Origin: Streptomyces sp. CB01635
Lineage (GTDB): Bacteria > Actinomycetota > Actinomycetes > Streptomycetales > Streptomycetaceae
Direction of reading: 5' to 3'
Assembly (NCBI RefSeq): GCF_002803065.1
Contig: NZ_NNBL01000020.1
Coordinates: forward strand, 62,001-126,000
DNA: 64,000 bases
The translations under genes and the position numbers were made by a program. Below the pieces are notes generated by a model. That model searched no databases. It saw nothing but the letters and a program-made list of their open reading frames with translations, and was not told the origin of the DNA. Below are positions 37,700-64,000 of this stretch, one piece after another; position 1 is the first letter of the stretch; the number at the start of each line of letters is the position of its first letter.

Positions 37700-38338
37700 T
37701 CAGGGCTTAGCTCCGGCGCGGGGCGTGAGGCCGAGCAGCCGCAGGTACATCGCCGTCAGATCGGCGACCGCCCGGTCCCGGTAGCCCGGGTCGGCGGCCA
37801 CGGCCCGTGCGAAGCCCGCGACCATGCCGGCCGCGGCGGTGGCCACGGACTCCGGCGAACCGGCCGGCTCGGCGAGGCCCTGGCGCACCAGACCGGCGAT
37901 GTAGCGCGCGGTGCGTCCGCGGGGGCGGTCGTTGATCTCGTCGCGGAGCACGCGCATCGCCGGATCCGTGAGTGACTGGTGTTCGAGCACGGTCAGGAAC
38001 GCGAGGTTGTCCACGTAGGCGTCCAGGAACGCCGCGTTGGTCCGCTCGGCGAGCAGATACGGGTCCTCGGCCTCTGGGGCCGCCGCTTCCTGGGCCGCCA
38101 GGAAGCGGTCCCGCAGATCGGCGGCGAGCACGGCGAAGACGTCCTGCTTGGAGGCGAAGTAGACATAGAACGTGGCGCGGCCGACGTCGGACTCCGCCGT
38201 GATGTCGGCGATCGTCGTGCGCGCATAGCCGCGCTGCTCGAAGACCGTGCGGGCCGCCGTGAGCAGTCGGGCCCGCGTGGCGCTGTCCTGGCGGTCCAGC
38301 TTGTCGCGCACGGTCCAGGATTTTCTCGCGATCGGCAT
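37700..38338 (-). CDS. TetR-family regulator divergent from the acyl-CoA carboxylase
   Basis: 212 aa. TetR helix-turn-helix at about residues 20-66 (SATRARLLTAARTVFEQRGY, TTIADITAESDVGRATFYVYF), then a ligand-binding region. It is divergent from the single-chain carboxylase gene, and two 16-bp inverted repeats lie 19-74 bp upstream of its start, strongly suggesting autoregulation and control of the carboxylase-ligase operon. Likely effectors would be acyl-CoAs, by analogy with other TetR regulators of fatty-acid genes; this is inference. Confidence 0.87.
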   Translation of the reverse strand: MPIARKSWTVRDKLDRQDSATRARLLTAARTVFEQRGYARTTIADITAESDVGRATFYVYFASKQDVFAVLAADLRDRFLAAQEAAAPEAEDPYLLAERTNAAFLDAYVDNLAFLTVLEHQSLTDPAMRVLRDEINDRPRGRTARYIAGLVRQGLAEPAGSPESVATAAAGMVAGFARAVAADPGYRDRAVADLTAMYLRLLGLTPRAGAKP

Positions 38339-38356
38339 GGCCCCAGCTTATTGACG

Positions 38357-38412
38357 TTGACGACGGCGTCAACGCAGACTGGGCGCGCCATTGAGGTTGA
38401 CACCAGCGTCAA
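38357..38412. promoter_or_regulatory. Two TetR-type operators, 40 bp apart
   Basis: TTGACGACGGCGTCAA (38357-38372) and TTGACACCAGCGTCAA (38397-38412), both TTGAC-N6-GTCAA, exactly 40 bp apart start to start, hence on the same helix face. They lie just upstream of the divergent TetR gene and about 150-200 bp from the carboxylase start. Confidence 0.7.
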
Positions 38413-38460
38413 TGCGCTGGCGCGTCGGTACGTCCGGCACGCCCCGAAGCCGTGTCACGT

Positions 38461-38524
38461 ACAGCCCAAGCAGAGCCATGTACAGCCCGAAGCACTCACT
38501 ACAGCCCGAAGCCGTCACGTACAG
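38461..38524. repeat. Three imperfect 19-21-bp tandem repeats in the carboxylase leader
   Basis: Units beginning ACAGCCC(A/G)AGC start at 38461, 38482 and 38501, and a fourth partial unit (ACAG) at 38521. The motif CACGTACAG also occurs at both ends (38456-38464 and 38516-38524). They end 36 bp before the carboxylase ATG. They could be transcription-factor sites or a leader structure; I cannot tell. Confidence 0.6.
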
Positions 38525-38560
38525 AAGGCCCCCGTTCCGGGCCCGTGGAGGAGACGTCCG

Positions 38561-41500
38561 ATGACACGTGTGCTGATCGCCAACCGGGGCGAGATCGCCG
38601 TCCGGATCCACCGCGCGGCATCGGCGCTCGGCCTGCGGACCGTGGCGGTGCACTCCGCGGACGACCGCTCGGCGGCCCATGTGCGGCTCGCCGACGAGGC
38701 CCACCTGCTCAAGGGCGAAGGCGTAGCCGCCTATCTCGACGCGCGTCAGATCGTGGAGATCGCCGGGCGCGCGGGATGCGACCTGGTCCACCCCGGCTAC
38801 GGGTTCCTCAGCGAGAACGCCGACTTCGCGACGGCGTGTGCCGAGGCGGGGCTGACCTTCGTGGGGCCCACCCCCGAACTCCTCGCTCTCTTCGGCGACA
38901 AGGCGAGCTCACGGGCGCTCGCCGTCCGGCACGGCGTCCCCGTCCTCGCGGCGACCGGCGCATCGACCTCGCTCGCGCAGGCCACGGAGTTCCTCGCCGG
39001 CGTGCGCGACGGCGTCATGGTGAAGGCGGTCGCCGGGGGAGGCGGCCGCGGCATGCGCGCGGTGCACGACGCGTCGGACCTCGCCTGGGCGTACGAGCGC
39101 TGCCGCTCCGAAGCCGAGCGGGCCTTCGGCAACGGTGATGTGTACGTCGAGCAACTCCTGCCCCGCGCCAAGCACATCGAGATCCAAGTCGTCGGGGACG
39201 GCACCGGACAGGTGACCCATCTGTGGGACCGGGAGTGCTCGGTCCAGCGCCGCAACCAGAAGCTGATCGAGGTCGCGCCCAGCCCGTGGCTCCCCGCGCG
39301 CACGCGTGACCTGCTGATCGAGGCCGCGGTGACGATGGCTTCGGCGACCCGGTATCTCGGCCTCGGCACCTTCGAGTTCCTCGTCGACGCGGACGACCCG
39401 GACGCCTACTACTTCATCGAGACCAATCCGCGCCTCCAGGTCGAGCACACCATCACCGAGGAACTCGCCGGCGTGGACCTGGTGGCCACCCAACTGCGCC
39501 TCGCCCAGGGCAGGTCGCTGGCCGAACTCGGCCTCCTCCAGGAGGAAATCCCGCAGCCGCGCGGCTTCGCGATCCAGACGCGCGTCAACCTCGAAGAGCT
39601 GTCCGCGGACGGCACGGCCCGCGCCTCGCAGGGCACGCTGACCGCCTTCGAGGCACCCGGCGGCCCCGGCGTGCGCGTGGACACCCACGGCCGCGCGGGC
39701 CTGGAGATCAAGGGCTCGTACGACTCCCTCGTCGCCAAGGTGATCACTCGTACGGTCCGCGGCGACTTCGCCGACGCGGCGGGGCGGGCGGCCGGGGCGC
39801 TCGCCGAGTTCACGCTCTCCGGCGTCCCCTCGAACATCCCGCTGCTGCGTGCCGTTCTGCGCCACGAGGCCTTCCGGGACGGCACGGTGACGACCGCCTT
39901 CGTCAACGAACACCTCGACAAGCTCGTACCGGGCGCCACCGCCTCTCAGGAGAGCCACGGCTCGGTCCTCACCGCCCTCTCCGCGGGCAGCGTCGTCGAC
40001 GTCTGTGTGGAGCCGGGCGCCGAGGTGGCGGCCGGTGCGCCACTCGTCGTCCTCGAGGCGATGAAGATGGAACACGTCCTGACCGCGCCCCGCGGCGGAA
40101 TCGTGCGCGAGGTCCGCGCGAGCGTCGGGGACGTCGTCCCGGCCGGTGCCGAACTCGTCGTCTTCGCACCTTCGCAGGGTGAGGACGGCGTCGACGAGGC
40201 GGCGGCCGACGTCGATCTCGACGTGATCAGGCCGGACCTCGCCGAGGTCGTCGAGCGCCACCGCATCGGCCTCGACGAGGCCAGGCCCCAGGCCGTCGAG
40301 CGCCGCAGGCGCACCGGCCACCGGACCGCACGCGAGAACCTCGCCGACCTCTGCGATCCGGGCAGCTTCACCGAGTACGGCGCCCTGGCCATCGCCGCGC
40401 AGCGCCGCCGCAGGACCCTCGAGGACCTGATCGCCAACACCCCGGCCGACGGGATCGTCACCGGTGTCGCCCAGGTCAACGGCGCGCAGTTCGGCGACCG
40501 GCGAAGCCAGTGCGCCGTCCTCGCGTACGACTACACCGTCCTCGCCGGCACACAGGGGATGCTCAACCACAAGAAGACCGACCGCATGCTCGAACTCGCC
40601 GAGCGGCAGCAGATCCCGGTCGTGCTCTTCGCCGAGGGCGGCGGCGGACGTCCCGGCGACACCGACATGATGGCCGTCGCCGGACTCGACGTCCCCACCT
40701 TCGCCACCCTGGCCAGGCTCAGCGGGCAGGTGCCGACGGTCGGCATCGTCGCCGGGCGCTGCTTCGCGGGCAACGCCGCGCTCCTCGGCTGCTGCGACGT
40801 CGTCATCGCGACCCCCGACGCCACGGTCGGCATGAGCGGCCCCGCGATGATCGAGGCGGGCGGCCTCGGGCAGTTCCTGCCCGAGGAGGTCGGACCGATG
40901 CCGGTCCAGGTACCGAACGGAGTCGTCGACATCCTGGTCGACGACGAGGCCGGGGCCGTGGCGGTCGCCAAGCAGTATCTCTCCTATTTCCAGGGCGACT
41001 TGAGCGACTGGGGCTGTGCGGACCAGCGCCTCCTGCGGCACGTCGTCCCCGAGAACCGGCTGCGCGCGTACGACGTACGTGAGGCGGTCACGCTCCTCGC
41101 CGACACCGGCTCGGTCCTGGAACTGCGCCGCGAGTTCGGCGTCGGCGTCATCACCGCGCTCGTACGGGTCGAGGGGCGGCCGATGGGCCTGGTCGCCAAC
41201 AACCCTCAGCACCTCGGCGGCGCCATCGACAGCGACGCAGCCGACAAGATGGCACGCTTCCTGCAACTCTGCGACGCCCACGGCCTGCCCGTGGTCACCC
41301 TGTGCGACACCCCGGGGTTCATGGTCGGCCCGGACGCCGAGAAGACCGCGACCGTACGGCACTTCAGCCGGCTCTTCGTCGCGGGAGCCCACCTCGGCGT
41401 CCCGGTCTTCTCCGCCGTGCTGCGCAAGGGCTACGGTCTCGGCGCGATGGCGATGACCGGCGGCGGCTTCCGCGCCCCCACGGCGATGGTCTCCTGGCCC

Positions 41501-41806
41501 ACCGGCGAGATCGGCCCGATGGGCCTGGAAGGCGCCGTCCGGCTCGGCTACCGCCGCGAACTCGAGGCCATCGCCGACCCGCAGGAGCGACAGGCCACGT
41601 ACGAGGCCCTGCTCGCGGAGCAGTACGAGCAGGGCAAGGCGCTCAACGCGGGGACGACCTTCGAGGTCGACGACGTGATCGACCCGGCCGACACCCGCCG
41701 CTGGATCACCACGACGTTCGCCCAGCACCCCACGCATCCGGATTCGTATCCGCACCCGCGTACGCCCGAGGGGCGCACCCGCGGTCGATTCATCGACACG
41801 TGGTGA
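38561..41806 (+). CDS. Single-chain multidomain acyl-CoA carboxylase (BC-BCCP-CT; LCC type)
   Basis: 1081 aa from ATG at 38561 behind GGAGGAG. Biotin carboxylase (1-450) starts VLIANRGEIAVRIHRAA and has the ATP-grasp loop AGGGGRGM near 159 and ETNPRLQVEH. The biotin carrier (about 470-540) has EAMKMEH with biotinylated Lys502. A full-length carboxyltransferase (about 570-1081) ends with LCDTPGFMVGPDAEK and RKGYGLGAMAMTGG. One chain thus carries what subunits AccA and AccD do separately; this matches the single-chain long-chain acyl-CoA carboxylases of mycobacteria. It makes a malonyl-type product from acyl-CoA and is probably cotranscribed with the acyl-CoA ligase 57 bp downstream. Confidence 0.93.
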   Translation: MTRVLIANRGEIAVRIHRAASALGLRTVAVHSADDRSAAHVRLADEAHLLKGEGVAAYLDARQIVEIAGRAGCDLVHPGYGFLSENADFATACAEAGLTFVGPTPELLALFGDKASSRALAVRHGVPVLAATGASTSLAQATEFLAGVRDGVMVKAVAGGGGRGMRAVHDASDLAWAYERCRSEAERAFGNGDVYVEQLLPRAKHIEIQVVGDGTGQVTHLWDRECSVQRRNQKLIEVAPSPWLPARTRDLLIEAAVTMASATRYLGLGTFEFLVDADDPDAYYFIETNPRLQVEHTITEELAGVDLVATQLRLAQGRSLAELGLLQEEIPQPRGFAIQTRVNLEELSADGTARASQGTLTAFEAPGGPGVRVDTHGRAGLEIKGSYDSLVAKVITRTVRGDFADAAGRAAGALAEFTLSGVPSNIPLLRAVLRHEAFRDGTVTTAFVNEHLDKLVPGATASQESHGSVLTALSAGSVVDVCVEPGAEVAAGAPLVVLEAMKMEHVLTAPRGGIVREVRASVGDVVPAGAELVVFAPSQGEDGVDEAAADVDLDVIRPDLAEVVERHRIGLDEARPQAVERRRRTGHRTARENLADLCDPGSFTEYGALAIAAQRRRRTLEDLIANTPADGIVTGVAQVNGAQFGDRRSQCAVLAYDYTVLAGTQGMLNHKKTDRMLELAERQQIPVVLFAEGGGGRPGDTDMMAVAGLDVPTFATLARLSGQVPTVGIVAGRCFAGNAALLGCCDVVIATPDATVGMSGPAMIEAGGLGQFLPEEVGPMPVQVPNGVVDILVDDEAGAVAVAKQYLSYFQGDLSDWGCADQRLLRHVVPENRLRAYDVREAVTLLADTGSVLELRREFGVGVITALVRVEGRPMGLVANNPQHLGGAIDSDAADKMARFLQLCDAHGLPVVTLCDTPGFMVGPDAEKTATVRHFSRLFVAGAHLGVPVFSAVLRKGYGLGAMAMTGGGFRAPTAMVSWPTGEIGPMGLEGAVRLGYRRELEAIADPQERQATYEALLAEQYEQGKALNAGTTFEVDDVIDPADTRRWITTTFAQHPTHPDSYPHPRTPEGRTRGRFIDTW

Positions 41807-57589: not shown

Positions 57590-59050
57590 TCAGGGGAACC
57601 GCAGAGGCTCTCCGTAACTGGGCCGGGGGGAAGGCTGCAGCCCTGCGTCACGGGCTCGCTGAGACGTCCATGCCGCCCACAGCAGGATGGCCGAGATCCC
57701 CAGGACGGCGCCGACCACATCCGGGACGGTGGGCCCCCGGCCCGACGGAAACACCATGAGAACCACAACGACGACCGCCGTCTTGACCCGGGTGTCCGCC
57801 AGCGGGCGCCATGCGACGGTGGCCAGGGGCACCGCACCCCACAGCAGGTACCAGCCTTGCACGGCTGGAGCACACACCACCAAAGCCAACAACCCCAGGG
57901 CCGCGGCGCGTTCGGCGCCGAGGCGAGGAGCGCGTGCCAGGAAGTACAAGGCGCCGCAGGCCCCTGCCAAGGTGCCGATCGTACGCATCACTGTCACCGG
58001 GTCCGGCGTGGTGTCCCAGCCGGCTTCGGTCCCGATCCACCTCAGCAGCCGCCCGACGTCCGTGGCCACCGACATCGGCGTGTACGAGTGGGCCGGCGTG
58101 CGGATCGTATGGAGCCAACCCCAGCCCAGCCCGCTGAGCGTCACTGTCAGCACCAGCGTCCCGACGGCCGCGAGGAGGATCCCCGCCGCGCGGCCCAAGC
58201 GTCGCCACCGGCCCGTCTGACCGGCGACTGCCACCAGGGCGGCGCACCCCAACGCCACCGCGGCCGGGGCCTTCACCAACGCGGCGCACGTCAGCGCGAC
58301 AACGCCCAGAACCCATCGTCCCGACCGGCACGCCACAAGACCGGTCATCATCAAGCCGAGCATCAGCGCCTCGTTGTGCGCCCCGCCCACCAGGTGGGCC
58401 AGCACCAGCGGATTCAACGACGCTGCCCACCAGGCGCCTGAGCCGTCGCCGCCCGACCGGGTCGCGAGCCACTGAACCGACCAGGCCAGCAGGGCGAGCC
58501 CCGCGAGCGCGGCCACCCGATGGAGCACGACAGCGGCGACCACATGGTGTTCGCCGGTCACGAAGACCACGGCCCGACTCACAAGAACGGACAGGGGGCC
58601 GTACGGAGCCGGCGCGTCCCGCCACACTTCGGGGACATTTGCTGCGAGATGCCCGCCGAGTGCCGAGGGCCCGACTTCGTACACGTTCCAGGAGCGCCCG
58701 GCCAGTGCGCCCTGGGCCACGTAGCTGTAGATGTCCATGCTGAACAGCGCCGGCGCCGGGAGCAGAGGCAGCGCCCAGCCGCCCAGCGTGAGCCACTGGC
58801 GCCGTCTGCTCATCACCGCGCCGGCCCGCAGCAGCGTGCCCAACTGCCACCAGGACCAGAGCAGCAGACTGAGTCCCGCATACGCCGCCGTCGCACCGAT
58901 CAGCGCGAGGGCGGGTCCCGGGGCTCCCCAGATCCCGTCCGGCACGCCGCGCGGCAGCGCGCCGGCGCCCCAGGCACCGCATGAGAGCAACGCAGAACCC
59001 CACATGCCGCGCTGTGCCCAGACCCGAATACCGCTATCCGCCGCTCTCAT
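57590..59050 (-). CDS. Polyprenol-phosphomannose-dependent mannosyltransferase, MptB-like (GT87-type)
   Basis: 486 aa from ATG at 59050; a GTG two codons upstream is an alternative. About 12-13 membrane helices. The first extracytoplasmic loop contains SMDIYSYVAQGALAGRSWNVYE, the acidic catalytic-loop motif of GT-C glycosyltransferases of the MptB/MptA group, and WRDAPAPYGPLSVLVSRAV and LVGGAHNEALMLGLM follow as conserved segments. Such enzymes add alpha-mannose units to lipoglycans from polyprenyl-phosphomannose on the outer membrane face. No other lipoglycan gene is adjacent. Confidence 0.87.
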   Translation of the reverse strand: MRAADSGIRVWAQRGMWGSALLSCGAWGAGALPRGVPDGIWGAPGPALALIGATAAYAGLSLLLWSWWQLGTLLRAGAVMSRRRQWLTLGGWALPLLPAPALFSMDIYSYVAQGALAGRSWNVYEVGPSALGGHLAANVPEVWRDAPAPYGPLSVLVSRAVVFVTGEHHVVAAVVLHRVAALAGLALLAWSVQWLATRSGGDGSGAWWAASLNPLVLAHLVGGAHNEALMLGLMMTGLVACRSGRWVLGVVALTCAALVKAPAAVALGCAALVAVAGQTGRWRRLGRAAGILLAAVGTLVLTVTLSGLGWGWLHTIRTPAHSYTPMSVATDVGRLLRWIGTEAGWDTTPDPVTVMRTIGTLAGACGALYFLARAPRLGAERAAALGLLALVVCAPAVQGWYLLWGAVPLATVAWRPLADTRVKTAVVVVVLMVFPSGRGPTVPDVVGAVLGISAILLWAAWTSQRARDAGLQPSPRPSYGEPLRFP

Positions 59051-59281
59051 TCGCACGAAGGTAGAGCGCTTTCCGGATCACCGCACCAGCTCTGCCCCAA
59101 TGAACGGCAAACGCCGGATGTCACCTGTGTCTGCGGCCGGGATGGGTTCATGGTCACAGCTTGGATCATGCGCCGCTGCCGAGTCCACGGGCGTGCCCAC
59201 GATGTGGACATGCGGAGGGGTGAATTCCGGCCGGTGCATACGATCCGACGGTACGTCCTCGCACCACACCGGAAGGCGCTC

Positions 59282-60766
59282 GTGAGTTCCACCTCCCCCC
59301 TGTCCACCAGCACATCTCCGGTGACGCCGTCGGGCACGGTACTGATCCGCTCCGCGGCCGACGTCTCCGATCTCGTCAACTCGGGCACGGCGCGGGGCCG
59401 GCACGCCAAGATGATCGTGATCATCGCGCTCGGCGGCATCTTCCTCGACGCGTACGACCTGAGCTCCCTGGCCTACGGGCTGCCCGACATCACCCGGCAG
59501 TTCGGCCTCAGCTCCACCATGGCCGGCACGGTCACCGCCTCGATCAGCGTCGGTTCGCTCCTCGGCGCCCTCGTCGGCGGCTGGCTCGTCGACCGGATCG
59601 GCCGCTACCGCGTCTTCATGGCCAACATGCTCTTCTTCGTCGCCACCGCGCTGGTGTGCGCGGTCGCGCAGGACGTGTGGACGCTGATCGCCGCGCGCTT
59701 CGTGATGGGCATCGGCGTCGGCATGGACATCCCGGTCGCGATCGCGTTCCTCGCCGAGTTCTCCCGGCTGCACGGCAAGGGCAGCAAGGGCTCTCGCACG
59801 GCCGCCTGGTCACCCGCCTGGTACACCGCGACCAGCGGCTGCTACCTCGTGATCATGGTGCTGTACTTCGTCCTGCCGGACGCCCAGTTGGGCTGGCTGT
59901 GGCGGTTCACCGTCGGCTTCGGCGCGGTCCCCGCGCTGCTGGTACTGCTGCTGCGCCGGCGCTACATGAACGAGTCCCCGACCTGGGCCGCCGACCAGGG
60001 CGACCTGGAAGGCGCGGCGAAGATCCTGCGGCAGTCGTACGGCGTGGACGCGCGCGTCGCCGACGACGCGCCCAAGACGGCGCCCCGCCCGCCCCGCACC
60101 GGCCTCGGCGCGTACGCGCGGCTCTTCGCCCCGCCGTACCGCACGCGCACGATCCAGTCGGTGGCGGTCGGTCTTGCGGAGACCTTCGGCTACAACGCGG
60201 TCGCGTTCGGACTGCCGATCATCATCGCCACGCTGATGACCCAGGGCCCGCTCACCACGATCGCGTCCTCCTTCGCCCTGAACCTCGTCTTCGCCCTGAC
60301 CGGCGGGCTGCTCGGCATCCGCTGGGCGTCGACCCGCGGCGCCTGGCCGATGATGACGCTGGGCTTCGCGATCCAGTTCGTCGCCATCACGGTGCTCGGC
60401 CTCATCGGGGATCCGTCCGGGACGGCCGTCGTGACGGCGGGCATCCTGATGCTCGGCGCGTTCATGTTCGCGCAGGGCTTCGGCCCCGGCGCACACATCA
60501 TGAGCTACGCCTCGCTGGGCTTCCCGACGTCGATGCGCGGTGTCAGTATCGGCTTCAACCAGGCCGTACTGCGCCTGGGTTCGACCTTGACCCTCTTCTT
60601 CTTCCCCATCCTCAGCACCGGCCTCGGCACCCACGTCTACTGGGTCATCCTCGCCGCCCCCGTCCTCGGCCTGACGGCCCTACTGGCGAAGCGCTGGGAG
60701 CCGATCGGCTTCGACGCGGACGCGGAGGAACGGAGCCGGTCCGGGCTGACGGCATCCAAGGCCTGA
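59282..60766 (+). CDS. MFS transporter (sugar/aromatic-acid symporter type)
   Basis: 494 aa from GTG at 59282 (GGAAGG five bases upstream). Twelve predicted helices; FLDAYDLSSLAYGLPDITRQFG in helix 1 and GGWLVDRIGRYRVF in the loop 2-3 motif place it in the sugar/organic-acid symporter branch, and the second half has the repeated RWASTRGAW loop. The cargo is unknown. It is divergent from the mannosyltransferase gene across a 231-bp gap in which no operator was recognised. Confidence 0.88.
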   Translation: MSSTSPLSTSTSPVTPSGTVLIRSAADVSDLVNSGTARGRHAKMIVIIALGGIFLDAYDLSSLAYGLPDITRQFGLSSTMAGTVTASISVGSLLGALVGGWLVDRIGRYRVFMANMLFFVATALVCAVAQDVWTLIAARFVMGIGVGMDIPVAIAFLAEFSRLHGKGSKGSRTAAWSPAWYTATSGCYLVIMVLYFVLPDAQLGWLWRFTVGFGAVPALLVLLLRRRYMNESPTWAADQGDLEGAAKILRQSYGVDARVADDAPKTAPRPPRTGLGAYARLFAPPYRTRTIQSVAVGLAETFGYNAVAFGLPIIIATLMTQGPLTTIASSFALNLVFALTGGLLGIRWASTRGAWPMMTLGFAIQFVAITVLGLIGDPSGTAVVTAGILMLGAFMFAQGFGPGAHIMSYASLGFPTSMRGVSIGFNQAVLRLGSTLTLFFFPILSTGLGTHVYWVILAAPVLGLTALLAKRWEPIGFDADAEERSRSGLTASKA

Positions 60767-60777
60767 AGGACCGAACA

Positions 60778-60816
60778 CCTGTGCCCCGACCGACAACACG
60801 TCGCTCGGGGCACAGG
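60778..60816. terminator. Bidirectional hairpin terminator
   Basis: 12-bp perfect arms CCTGTGCCCCGA and TCGGGGCACAGG with a 15-base loop, in the 70-bp gap between the convergent MFS and hypothetical genes. Confidence 0.75.
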
Positions 60817-60836
60817 CGTTCAGGCGGCGCGAGTGC

Positions 60837-61199
60837 CTACTGGCCCTCGTCGCACATGCCTTCCTCCAGTTCGGAGATCGGCCGGTCGCCGGAGGCGACG
60901 CAGATCCACTGCGTGGGTTCCTCGGCGTACGCCCAGCTGCGGGGGTCGGTGAGGAGCTCGGTCAGCTCCTCACCGGTGACCTCCTGGCCCGCGCCGTACG
61001 CGGGCCACTCGTCCGACCGGAACACCCGGATGAACCCCAGGGGCTGCCAGCAGGCGATGAGCCGGGCGAAGCGCGGAATGTGTTTCTTCCACTCCTCCTC
61101 GTCCTCGCCCTGTGTCCAGTCGGCGAGCACGGCCCAGAGGTCGGAGGCCTCTCCACCGTTGACGTAGAGGCAGTATTCGTCGTCGGCCCAGTCCTTCAC
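60837..61199 (-). CDS. Acidic hypothetical protein
   Basis: 120 aa from GTG at 61199 with GGAG seven bases upstream (GTG AAG GAC TGG). The product is acidic and tryptophan-rich (DLWAVLADWTQGEDEEEWKK, FIRVFRSDEWPAYGAG), soluble, without signal peptide or membrane segment. I do not recognise a family. Such small acidic proteins sometimes act as immunity or regulatory partners, but nothing next to it supports that here. Confidence 0.7.
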   Translation of the reverse strand: MKDWADDEYCLYVNGGEASDLWAVLADWTQGEDEEEWKKHIPRFARLIACWQPLGFIRVFRSDEWPAYGAGQEVTGEELTELLTDPRSWAYAEEPTQWICVASGDRPISELEEGMCDEGQ

Positions 61200-61380
61200 G
61201 GAAAGCTCCTCATCCCAGCCGCTCGACCACCCATCGGCCCTCCTCGAAGGAGGCATCGGATTCCCGCCCGGCCGCCGCGCCGTCGACCGGTGCGCCAACC
61301 CGCCGTAGCGTTGTACCAAAGCGCCGAGCAGAGATCCTCGATCGCACTGGGCACCGCTGATTCGGGAGAGGGGCGATGGT

Positions 61381-62337
61381 GTGGAGGGCACAGGAGTGGA
61401 AGAGGGGCGGGGTGACCCGGGGCTCTTCGGGCCCGGTTCGGTCACCTGGCAGCTGCACGCGGATCCGATGATGTGGGTCGCCGGTGTGCGTGCGCTCTAC
61501 TTTCAGGCGCTCTTGCCGCGTGCCGTGCGGGGCGTCATGCAGAACTCGGACTTCCGGAAGGATGCCTGGGGGCGGCTGATGCGGACGGCCGGGTTCGTCG
61601 GTACGACCACGTACGGGACCACTGAGGCCGCCGAGCGTGCCGGTGCCCGCGTGCGGAAGATCCACAGCCATCTCAAGGTCACCGACCCCGGCACCGGTGA
61701 GCGGTACGGCGTCGATGAGCCGGAGCTGCTCCTGTGGGTGCACTGCGCAGAGATCGACTCCTACCTCCACGTCGCGCGCCGCTCCGGGTTCCGGCTCACC
61801 GACGCGCAGGCCGACCAGTACATCTCCGAACACCGCACCAGCGCCCGGCTGGTGGGCCTCGACCCCGCCGACGTGCCCGGCGACCGGGCCCAACTCGCCG
61901 CGTACTTCGAGGAGATGAGACCCCTTCTCGCCGCGGGTCCGGAGGCCCAGGATGTCGACGACTTCCTGCGCAGACCGCCCGTCCACCCGCTGCTGATCCC
62001 GGCGCGCGCGACGCTCTGGAGGCGCGTGTCGCATCTGGCGTACGCCTCTCTGCCGCCGTACGCCCACGAGTTGTACGGCAGGCAGGCCCCGGCACCGACC
62101 GCCGTGACCCGAGGGCTGCGGTTCACCGGCACCGTCCTGCGCTGCGTTCCCGCACGTGTGCGCTGGCAGCTCCCGCCGAAACACATCCTGCGCGCCATGT
62201 CACGACTCGGCCCCGGCAGCCGCCCGGCACCGTACAAAATCGGGAGTCGGACGGCCATACTGGACAGGCCGGGGAGGGCGCAGCGAGGCGACGGGGGCGA
62301 CAGCACGAGATGCCGGAGTCGGGGGAGACCAGGCTGA
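61381..62337 (+). CDS. DUF2236 oxygenase-like protein (MpaB/latex-clearing family)
   Basis: 318 aa from GTG at 61381; a GTG at 61396 is an alternative. DUF2236 core: GLFGPGSVTWQLHADPMMWV, then LYFQALLPRAVRGVM, LLLWVHCAEIDSYLHVARR and a late basic region. The conserved arginine/histidine positions of the family (haem-linked in the Lcp rubber oxygenases) appear in HADPMMW and LWVHCAEIDSYL. The physiological substrate is unknown. The last 28 bp overlap the start of the kinase gene in another frame, so the two are translationally linked. Confidence 0.82.
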   Translation: MEGTGVEEGRGDPGLFGPGSVTWQLHADPMMWVAGVRALYFQALLPRAVRGVMQNSDFRKDAWGRLMRTAGFVGTTTYGTTEAAERAGARVRKIHSHLKVTDPGTGERYGVDEPELLLWVHCAEIDSYLHVARRSGFRLTDAQADQYISEHRTSARLVGLDPADVPGDRAQLAAYFEEMRPLLAAGPEAQDVDDFLRRPPVHPLLIPARATLWRRVSHLAYASLPPYAHELYGRQAPAPTAVTRGLRFTGTVLRCVPARVRWQLPPKHILRAMSRLGPGSRPAPYKIGSRTAILDRPGRAQRGDGGDSTRCRSRGRPG

Positions 62338-64000
62338 TCCAGGGCCGGTACCGGCTGCTCGATCTCATCGGGCGGGGCGGTATGGGCGAAGTGTGGCGCG
62401 CCAGGGACGAGTCGCTCGGGCGCAGAGTCGCGGTCAAGTGCCTCAAGCCGATGGGGCCGCAGCACGACCAGTCCTTCACCCGGGTCCTGCGGGAGCGCTT
62501 CCGCAGGGAGGCCCGGGTGGCGGCCGCCCTCCAGCATCGCGGGGTGACCGTCGTCCACGACTTCGGCGAGCACGAAGGCGTGCTGTACCTCGTGATGGAG
62601 CTTCTGGAGGGCAAGAACCTCAGCCAGCTCCTGGAGGACAACAAGCAGCACCCGTTACCCGTCGCCGACATCGTCGAGATCGCCGGCCAGGTCTCGTCCG
62701 CGCTCGCCTACACGCATGAACAGGGCATCGTCCACCGTGACTTGAAGCCCGCGAACATCATGCGGCTCGCCGACGGCACGGTGAAGATCTGCGACTTCGG
62801 CATCGCGCGCCTCGGCCACGACATCGGCTTCACCTCACGCCTCACCGGCACCGGCATCGCGATGGGCACCCCGCACTACATGTCGCCCGAGCAGATCGGC
62901 GGCGACCATGTCGACCAGCGCAGCGACCTGTACTCGTTCGGCTGCGTGCTCTACGAGATCGCGACCGGGGCGCCGCCGTTCGACCTGGAGGACGCCTGGG
63001 CCGTCCTCGTCGGGCACCGCGACACCGTGCCCGAACCGCCCCGGAGGCACCGGGCCGAGCTCCCCGGCTTCCTGGACCGGATCATCGTCGACCTCCTCGC
63101 GAAGGACCCGGACGAACGGCCGCGGGACGCCCGCGAACTGGCCCGCCGGATCGGTGACGGCCGTTCCCGGTCCGGATATGTGCCGACGGGTTCGACAACC
63201 CCCTTACGCCAGACCGCGGTTGAGCCACAGCAGCCGCTTTCCCGTGAACCGCGGCTGCCGTCCTGGACGCGCGGCATGACGACGGGCCACAAGGCGGCCG
63301 GGCCGCCCCTGCTGCGCGGCACGCCGCCCGACGCGGCAGCGGGGCTGGCCGGGGAGTGGATCGCGCGCCCCGAGTCGCGGCGCGGGGAGCAGCCCGTGCG
63401 CACGGAACGCCCCACGCCGGCACCGGAGTCGGTCGCCCATCTCGCAGCCCGGCACAACGCGGGCCTGAGCCTCGGCCGGCTCGGGCGCTGGGAGGAGGCC
63501 GGCGAGGTCCACCGCGCCGTCGCGGCGGAGCGCGAGCACGTCCTCGGCCCCGACCACCCCGAGACGCTCGCCAGCCGCTACGAGGTCGCCTTCACGCTCA
63601 GCCGCACCGGCCGCCCCGCCGACGCCCTGCGCGAGTACCGCCGCGTCACCGAGGGGTGCGAGCGGGTCCTCGGCCCCGAGCACCCCGAAACGCTCGGCGC
63701 CCGGCAGGAAATGGCTTACGTCCTGGGCCAGTTGGGGCGCCACTTCGACGCGCACCAGGTGTACACATCGGTGCTCGCGGCGCGTGAGCGGGCCATGGGA
63801 CCCGACCATCCGGACACCCTGCGCTGCCGCCACAACCTCGCGTACAACCTCAGCCGGCTCGGGCGACTCGAGGACTCGTACCGCATGGCGCGTGAGGTCG
63901 CCTCGGCGCGCGCCCGCGTCCTCGGCGCCAGCCATCCGGACACGCTCGTCACGCGCTACGAAGTTGCTTACGCACTGGGTCAGTTGGGGCGCTGGACCGA
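62310..64000 (+). CDS. Ser/Thr protein kinase with C-terminal TPR array (runs off right edge)
   Basis: At least 563 aa, open to the window end. Hanks-type kinase (about 12-275): glycine loop IGRGGMGEVWRA, Lys43 in VAVKCLKP, HRDLKPAN with Asp144, DFG at 162-164, and GTPHYMSPEQIGG. A linker of about 100 residues leads to at least four 42-residue kinesin-light-chain-type TPRs, each with a G(P/A)xHP(E/D)TL motif. There is no membrane helix before the edge, so it appears soluble. Two TTA leucine codons (62655-62657 and 63204-63206) make bldA-dependent translation likely. The ATG at 62310 lies within the DUF2236 gene's 3' end. Confidence 0.92.
   Translation, partial: MPESGETRLIQGRYRLLDLIGRGGMGEVWRARDESLGRRVAVKCLKPMGPQHDQSFTRVLRERFRREARVAAALQHRGVTVVHDFGEHEGVLYLVMELLEGKNLSQLLEDNKQHPLPVADIVEIAGQVSSALAYTHEQGIVHRDLKPANIMRLADGTVKICDFGIARLGHDIGFTSRLTGTGIAMGTPHYMSPEQIGGDHVDQRSDLYSFGCVLYEIATGAPPFDLEDAWAVLVGHRDTVPEPPRRHRAELPGFLDRIIVDLLAKDPDERPRDARELARRIGDGRSRSGYVPTGSTTPLRQTAVEPQQPLSREPRLPSWTRGMTTGHKAAGPPLLRGTPPDAAAGLAGEWIARPESRRGEQPVRTERPTPAPESVAHLAARHNAGLSLGRLGRWEEAGEVHRAVAAEREHVLGPDHPETLASRYEVAFTLSRTGRPADALREYRRVTEGCERVLGPEHPETLGARQEMAYVLGQLGRHFDAHQVYTSVLAARERAMGPDHPDTLRCRHNLAYNLSRLGRLEDSYRMAREVASARARVLGASHPDTLVTRYEVAYALGQLGRWT

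Follow-up and report, generated by a model that had tools for sequence, protein, structure and literature searches.

In Streptomyces, TTA codons are often taken as a sign of developmental control, and the present case shows that this reading calls for a test on orthologues: comparing them separates a conserved target of the bldA tRNA, e.g., adpA, from a gene carrying TTA at nearly the background rate. According to the excerpted text of PMC4255298, the adpA gene harbors a TTA codon in all streptomycetes analysed; a few adpA genes lacking TTA are already in print (PMC8653842, in excerpt, citing a 2018 paper), and in S. coelicolor the codon occupies nt 673–675 of adpA (PMC10327506, in excerpt). 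The latter paper also gives 51–505 TTA-containing ORFs per Streptomyces genome (mean 177), 92% of them with a single TTA and most of them poorly conserved.

The consequences of TTA for gene expression are described in several papers, cited here in excerpt. In S. ghanaensis without bldA, the moeE5 reporter (two UUA codons) was silent and the adpA reporter was weakly active (PMC3814723). For UUA, no higher proneness to error than for the other Leu codons is predicted, though bldA mutants do express some TTA genes (PMC4932002). Functional bldA tRNA is present early in growth, as judged by an actII-ORF4 fusion (PMC11836424), and mutations in 21 TTA genes of S. coelicolor had no evident effect (PMC2000904, with reference to another paper).

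The gene considered here lies at the end of the window (the whole analysed stretch of DNA, 64,000 nucleotides from Streptomyces sp. CB01635). An earlier note on this DNA ascribed to it two in-frame TTA codons and, on these grounds, a probable restriction of its product to development or secondary metabolism. The relevant features are the following:

61381..62337, + strand: DUF2236 / MPAB_Lcp_cat oxygenase-like gene (Pfam PF09995, E 1.9e-61)
62310..64000, + strand: gene of a Ser/Thr protein kinase that has TPR repeats in its C-terminal part (752 aa; it continues for 568 bases past the window, to C13:126568)
62655..62657, + strand: TTA codon 116 (Leu) in the kinase domain, followed by CCC (sequence read; orthologue alignment)
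63204..63206, + strand: TTA codon 299 (Leu) in the linker between the kinase domain and the TPR region, followed by CGC (sequence read; orthologue alignment)

The kinase ORF starts with the ATG at 62310 and proceeds in frame beyond the window to a TGA in contig C13, codons 116 and 299 being the sole TTA codons of the 752-codon gene. Both are in frame in the sequence and in the ORF translation, and the domain placement given in the earlier note is equally borne out: within the 563 kinase residues encoded in the window, Pfam delimits a Pkinase domain at 14–272 (E 1.6e-49), harboring Leu116, and TPR_12/TPR_10 repeats starting from residue ~379, with codon 299 in the linker between them. The glycine loop, VAVK, HRDLKPAN and DFG, which we take to be the usual catalytic motifs of kinases, are readable in the translation. 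A Met occurs at about the kinase start, directly ahead of the residues that align with GETRLIQGRYRLLDLIG, in the 29 listed rows of the orthologue alignment; hence, both TTA codons reside inside the real gene, downstream of its start and within the limits common to the orthologues. The codon usage is otherwise typical and well adapted (third-position GC 0.92), the remaining Leu codons being represented by 73 CTC/CTG, 4 TTG, 2 CTT and no CTA.

The assignment of the kinase to several described families was tried and rejected on the NCBIfam cut-offs: PknB/Stk1 PASTA kinases (NF033483, 308.1 vs. 450 bits), AfsK (NF053615, 104.8 vs. 1300 bits) and the TPR protein of the FxSxx-COOH system (NF040586, 233.1 vs. 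300 bits, with the best stretch in the TPR part). The region 62310–63350 also scored against the PADLOC PD-T4-6 models with E down to 1e-95. A role in defence was discarded as well: the 25 listed of the 34 PADLOC rows match the N-terminal kinase region, mostly by PD-T4-6 models, and these scores probably stem from generic Hanks-kinase similarity rather than from a defence system. A narrow literature search returned no paper joining Streptomyces Ser/Thr protein kinases with a TTA codon.

The genome possesses the setting expected for a bldA-dependent gene. Typing of all ten long tRNAs (≥82 bases) among the 67 tRNA matches in the draft assembly revealed a single tRNA-Leu(UAA) with the anticodon taa (G000:C18:39074-39159); no second copy similar to it was found, the next best matches (74% identity) being two tRNA-Leu(gag) genes. 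This set of ten (L042–L051) includes tRNA-Leu genes with the anticodons taa, tag, cag and, in two copies, gag; a tRNA-Leu with caa was not found among them, which may reflect a search miss or an assembly gap. The adpA gene of the same genome (L190, named by its AdpA features, a DJ-1/PfpI match and the agreement of the TTA position) has TTA as codon 225, i.e., at nt 673–675. Three features of bldA-dependent TTA genes were thereby found for the kinase, namely the in-frame TTA codons, the single tRNA-Leu(UAA) and the rarity of TTA (see below). Since in-frame TTA codons coexist here with one bldA-type tRNA-Leu(UAA), the full-length kinase of this strain can fairly be predicted, from sequence, to need the bldA tRNA. 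In S. clavuligerus, the base following TTA is said to be tied to mistranslation (Trepanier et al. 2002). This base is C after both TTA codons of the kinase and after that of the own-genome adpA, so it has no discriminating value here.

The expectation for TTA by chance was derived from a sample of 20 × 20 kb (400 kb) of the own genome, where background ORFs were simple GC-frame calls (some of them false or over-long, with some genes missed) and the first 60 codons of each ORF were masked, which dropped 7 of the 17 TTA codons. After codon 60, TTA accounted for 10/9520 Leu codons, bearing out the assertion that TTA is rare in the source organism. With its 81 Leu codons, the kinase is expected at this rate to contain 0.085 TTA codons (81 × 0.00105) and has two, P(≥1) being 0.08 and P(≥2) 0.0034. 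The latter value rises to 0.007 at the unmasked own-genome rate (17/11003 Leu codons) and to 0.021 when the unmasked rate is taken from the regions flanking the 80 orthologue loci, where TTA made up 88/32120 Leu codons and 81/806 ORFs held it. None of the 290 ORFs in the own-genome sample had two or more TTA codons. About 9 genes with at least two TTA are expected by chance per genome (8700 genes assumed), and the published mean of 177 TTA ORFs, 92% of them with a single one (PMC10327506, in excerpt), translates into ~14 such genes per genome. The TTA pair in the kinase is uncommon, yet unremarkable.

The absence of a further in-frame TTA from the window genes checked in the earlier note holds within the calling employed, i.e., 44 ORFs covering 86% of the window as found by a heuristic GC-frame caller, plus the DUF2236 gene, which this caller missed and which has no TTA. 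The sole further called ORF with TTA (37979–41806, codon 124) was rejected as a second TTA gene: its first carboxylase domain begins at residues ~194–197, some 70 codons after the TTA, hence the codon is probably located upstream of the true start. A looser scan of the window yielded 6 more TTA ORFs, each lying by 63–100% under called genes and therefore probably representing shadow ORFs. An ORF downstream of the kinase (L011 10900, codon 32) was also dismissed as a TTA gene, its TTA being positioned just ahead of the ATG of the FAD protein.

The earlier note had proposed a comparison of codons in orthologues, and it is this comparison that turns against its conclusion. The orthologue set was limited to the 80 best-ranking among at least 582 related stretches (74–84% identity, nearly all full-length), 79 of them titled Streptomyces, which fits a Streptomyces source, and one 'Actinobacteria bacterium OV320'; two members truncated by contig ends (L088 and L100) were retained, and TTA codons in upstream extensions preceding the start of the window kinase were left uncounted (L059, L065, L067, L097, L103, L105, L114, L118, L119, L124). 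Among these best 80 of 582, codon 116 specifies Leu in 79 and is represented by CTG (67), CTC (9), CTT (1), TTG (1), TTC (1, Phe) and TTA (1), the sole TTA belonging to S. phyllanthi (L079); the closest relatives in this set (L052, L053 and L057, 84% identity) have CTG. At codon 299, TTA occurs in none of the 80, the column is gapped in 59, and Leu is present in five, always as CTG. A TTA anywhere in the gene was encountered in 6/80, one in each: at position 743 in L054, 374 in L060, 116 in L079, 749 in L092, 743 in L095 and 98 in L100.

In total, 6 of the 6786 Leu codons of the orthologues are TTA vs. 7.1 expected from the masked own-genome rate and 18.6 from the unmasked flank rate, on which the kinase family is TTA-poor. 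On the kinase tree, the seven TTA-bearing rows require 6 changes (shuffle mean 6.8, with 83/500 shuffles as low), and the members of the only TTA-bearing sister pair, L095/L100, have their TTA codons at different positions. A further 18 loci from 17 same-genus genomes, possibly overlapping in species with the 80 and including some shorter or more distant copies, gave no TTA at codon 116 in the 17 cases where it was readable (all but L147); the TTA of L141 falls at position ~775, whereby it lies past the end of the 752-codon kinase gene studied here. Conserved developmental gating of the kinase family was thus rejected: neither site is conserved, the TTA-bearing rows need nearly as many changes on the tree as shuffled ones, and TTA is not enriched. 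As a side observation, one genome (G005) harbors two relatives of the kinase on one contig of ~7.2 Mb, L143 near 7.23 Mb and L149 near 0.21 Mb. In the matched parts, their identity to the query is 73% and 78%, respectively, hence neither is a plain terminal-repeat copy of the other.

The adpA gene served as the positive control. Its set comprised 79 genomes of the same genus, among them the one that contains the window (of 81 genomes, two lacked a match, two extra matches in G065 were unused, and L226, from another genus and without TTA, was left out). TTA was found at codon 225 in 63 of the genomes, elsewhere in the gene in 3, and was absent in 13. A TTA is thus present in 66/79 adpA genes vs. 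6/80 kinase genes (Fisher P = 4e-24, for two different genome sets), the kinase keeping it in 1/80 at codon 116 and 0/80 at codon 299. Since the control was positive, the comparison is capable of picking up a conserved bldA codon, and the kinase has none.

The same control brought about an observation on adpA itself. In three genes, the codon appears to have moved, to codon 137 in L202 (G024) and L218 (G006) and to codon 245 in L242 (G075), in L190 numbering, and these genes occupy separate places on the adpA tree. An extra or other TTA was recorded in 3/16 genomes without TTA225 vs. 0/63 with it (Fisher P = 0.007 by genomes); for ~8 loss events, as estimated by eye from the adpA tree, P = 0.001 for TTA elsewhere, and background alone would give 0.67 in the 16 TTA225-less genes, with P(≥3) = 0.03. 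A single clade comprises 9 of the 13 TTA-free adpA genes (L223 and L268–L275, from G012, G094, G058, G087, G070, G054, G055, G090 and G062). Matches to tRNA-Leu(UAA) of 92–99% identity (by match only) were obtained in 8/8 genomes checked, including genomes with the moved TTA (G024, G006) and with no TTA (G019, G012); the match in G012, a member of the TTA-free clade, was a tRNA-Leu(UAA)-like one with 92% identity. The ratio of 3/16 to 0/63 suggests that selection in adpA may act on the presence of TTA rather than on its position. No description of such relocation was found in the excerpted literature on adpA and TTA, although the cited 2018 paper may contain one; the relocation may be of more interest than the TTA codons of the kinase.

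The surroundings of the kinase gene were also compared. The end of the DUF2236 gene and the start of the kinase gene share 28 bases, which makes co-transcription plausible, the DUF2236 gene being a possible co-transcribed partner of the kinase gene. In the best 80 of 582 orthologue loci, a DUF2236 gene was found upstream of the kinase, on the same strand and no more than 3 kb away, in at least 69. The downstream FAD oxidoreductase has a relative, likewise on the same strand and with a median start 2.4 kb after that of the kinase, in at least 76. Nitronate monooxygenase, a beta-lactamase-family gene and acyl-CoA dehydrogenase were detected in at least 55, 47 and 36 of these loci, respectively. 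All these counts are lower bounds as contig ends cut some of the loci (at least 1.2 kb of upstream sequence is available in 76/80). Seven of the nine neighbours examined belong to Pfam families (GNAT, acyl-CoA dehydrogenase, MFS, DUF2236, FAD oxidoreductase, beta-lactamase family, nitronate monooxygenase), and no family was assigned to the other two. The nine neighbours look metabolic or have no family, and Pfam disclosed no recognised developmental or antibiotic gene among them.

Between the acyl-CoA dehydrogenase and DUF2236 genes, the window contains a segment (57590–61445) with the ORFs 57590–59056 (−), 59150–60766 (+, MFS transporter) and 60837–61445 (−); none of the three gave a tblastn match in any of the 80 orthologue loci, which suggests that the segment was inserted locally in this strain. 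Regarding the position on the chromosome, the kinase is situated within 11% of one end in the four records with the title or size of a chromosome (L053, L086, L113 and L121); in the five single-contig genomes with a match, the latter is within 9% of an end in G005, G009 and G013, at ~21% in G012 and near the middle in G007. TTA genes favour chromosome arms (PMC10327506, in excerpt).

Taken together with the adpA control, the orthologue data make it likely that the TTA codons of the kinase are lineage-specific, near-neutral gains and not a conserved developmental switch of the kinase family. The gene encodes a Ser/Thr kinase of the Hanks type, extended by a TPR tail, and has orthologues in many Streptomyces species. 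In the lineage of this strain, two of its codons would have turned into TTA, one at a conserved Leu mostly encoded by CTG or CTC in the orthologues and the other, a second gain, in a fast-changing linker. Such recent, presumably near-neutral changes may lower the level of the kinase when the bldA tRNA is scarce, so that the dependence on bldA would be confined, at most, to the level of the strain. Of the bldA reading as a whole, the bldA-type tRNA, the rarity of TTA and the TTA of adpA stood, and the developmental restriction did not: the codons are poorly kept in comparison with adpA and the neighbours are metabolic or lack a family.

Several points speak against near-neutrality. Two TTA gains in one gene have a P of 0.003 to 0.02 depending on the background, signal transduction genes are TTA-enriched in 126/213 species (PMC10327506, in excerpt), and the position of TTA116 is common to L079, which is located elsewhere on the tree; the near absence of TTA from the orthologues may, moreover, be compatible with a recent adaptation in this species. 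The strongest rival, which takes up the reading of the earlier note, is that selection in this lineage favoured the TTA codons as a means of placing the kinase under bldA, so that it would act only in late growth, in development or in secondary metabolism. The genome does possess the bldA-type tRNA and an intact TTA in adpA, the two TTA codons contrast with 0.085 expected and with an otherwise well-adapted codon usage, and a reporter with two UUA codons is silent without bldA (PMC3814723, in excerpt). At the same time, neither site is conserved, the family displays no enrichment in TTA, and no recognised developmental or antibiotic gene was spotted among the nine neighbours tested, so we regard selection as unlikely. 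If the kinase is truly bldA-gated here, it would exemplify a rapid rewiring of phosphorylation signalling. In a bolder version, this one lineage would have recruited a conserved kinase into the bldA regulon very recently and adaptively, and the linker TTA would give rise to a kinase domain devoid of the TPR region when the bldA tRNA is scarce; this seems to us very unlikely.

A role for codon 299 as a translation pause in the linker, allowing the kinase domain to fold before the TPR region is made, is hardly credible. The codon does lie between the kinase domain (14–272) and the TPR region (~379 on), and rare codons in interdomain linkers were contemplated for adpA (PMC7875965, in excerpt); however, TTA299 has no counterpart in the 80 orthologues, 59 of which have a gap in this column, and codon 116 would be left unexplained. 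Least credible of all is that one or both TTA codons stem from an error in sequencing or assembly: the source is a single draft assembly of 61 contigs, but the frame is intact, Leu116 is the residue of 79/80 orthologues, and it would be improbable for two independent errors in the same gene both to create TTA.

Returning to the near-neutral gain of TTA and to the known systems, the kinase resembles adpA in having an in-frame TTA in an interdomain region (for adpA, PMC4255298, in excerpt), in a genome equipped with tRNA-Leu(UAA) and with C following the codon. It differs from adpA in conservation, TTA225 being found in 63/79 genomes vs. 1/80 and 0/80 for the TTA codons 116 and 299 of the kinase. 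In terms of kinase families, its kinase domain is closest by sequence to the solved PknB (1mru, E 8e-55, the best of the 60 matches listed of 2787), whereas the PknB/Stk1 PASTA kinases differ from it as a whole: the window kinase features a TPR tail and no PASTA match (Pfam, first 563 residues). In its architecture of a kinase domain plus TPR, it is like the bacterial kinase–TPR fusions reported from S. avermitilis and others (PMC1262709, in excerpt). In the conservation of its codons and in its affiliation with signal transduction, the kinase is similar to the lineage-specific TTA genes of Streptomyces with poorly conserved TTA (PMC10327506 and PMC4255298, in excerpt); 92% of TTA ORFs harbor a single TTA (PMC10327506, in excerpt), whereas the kinase has two.
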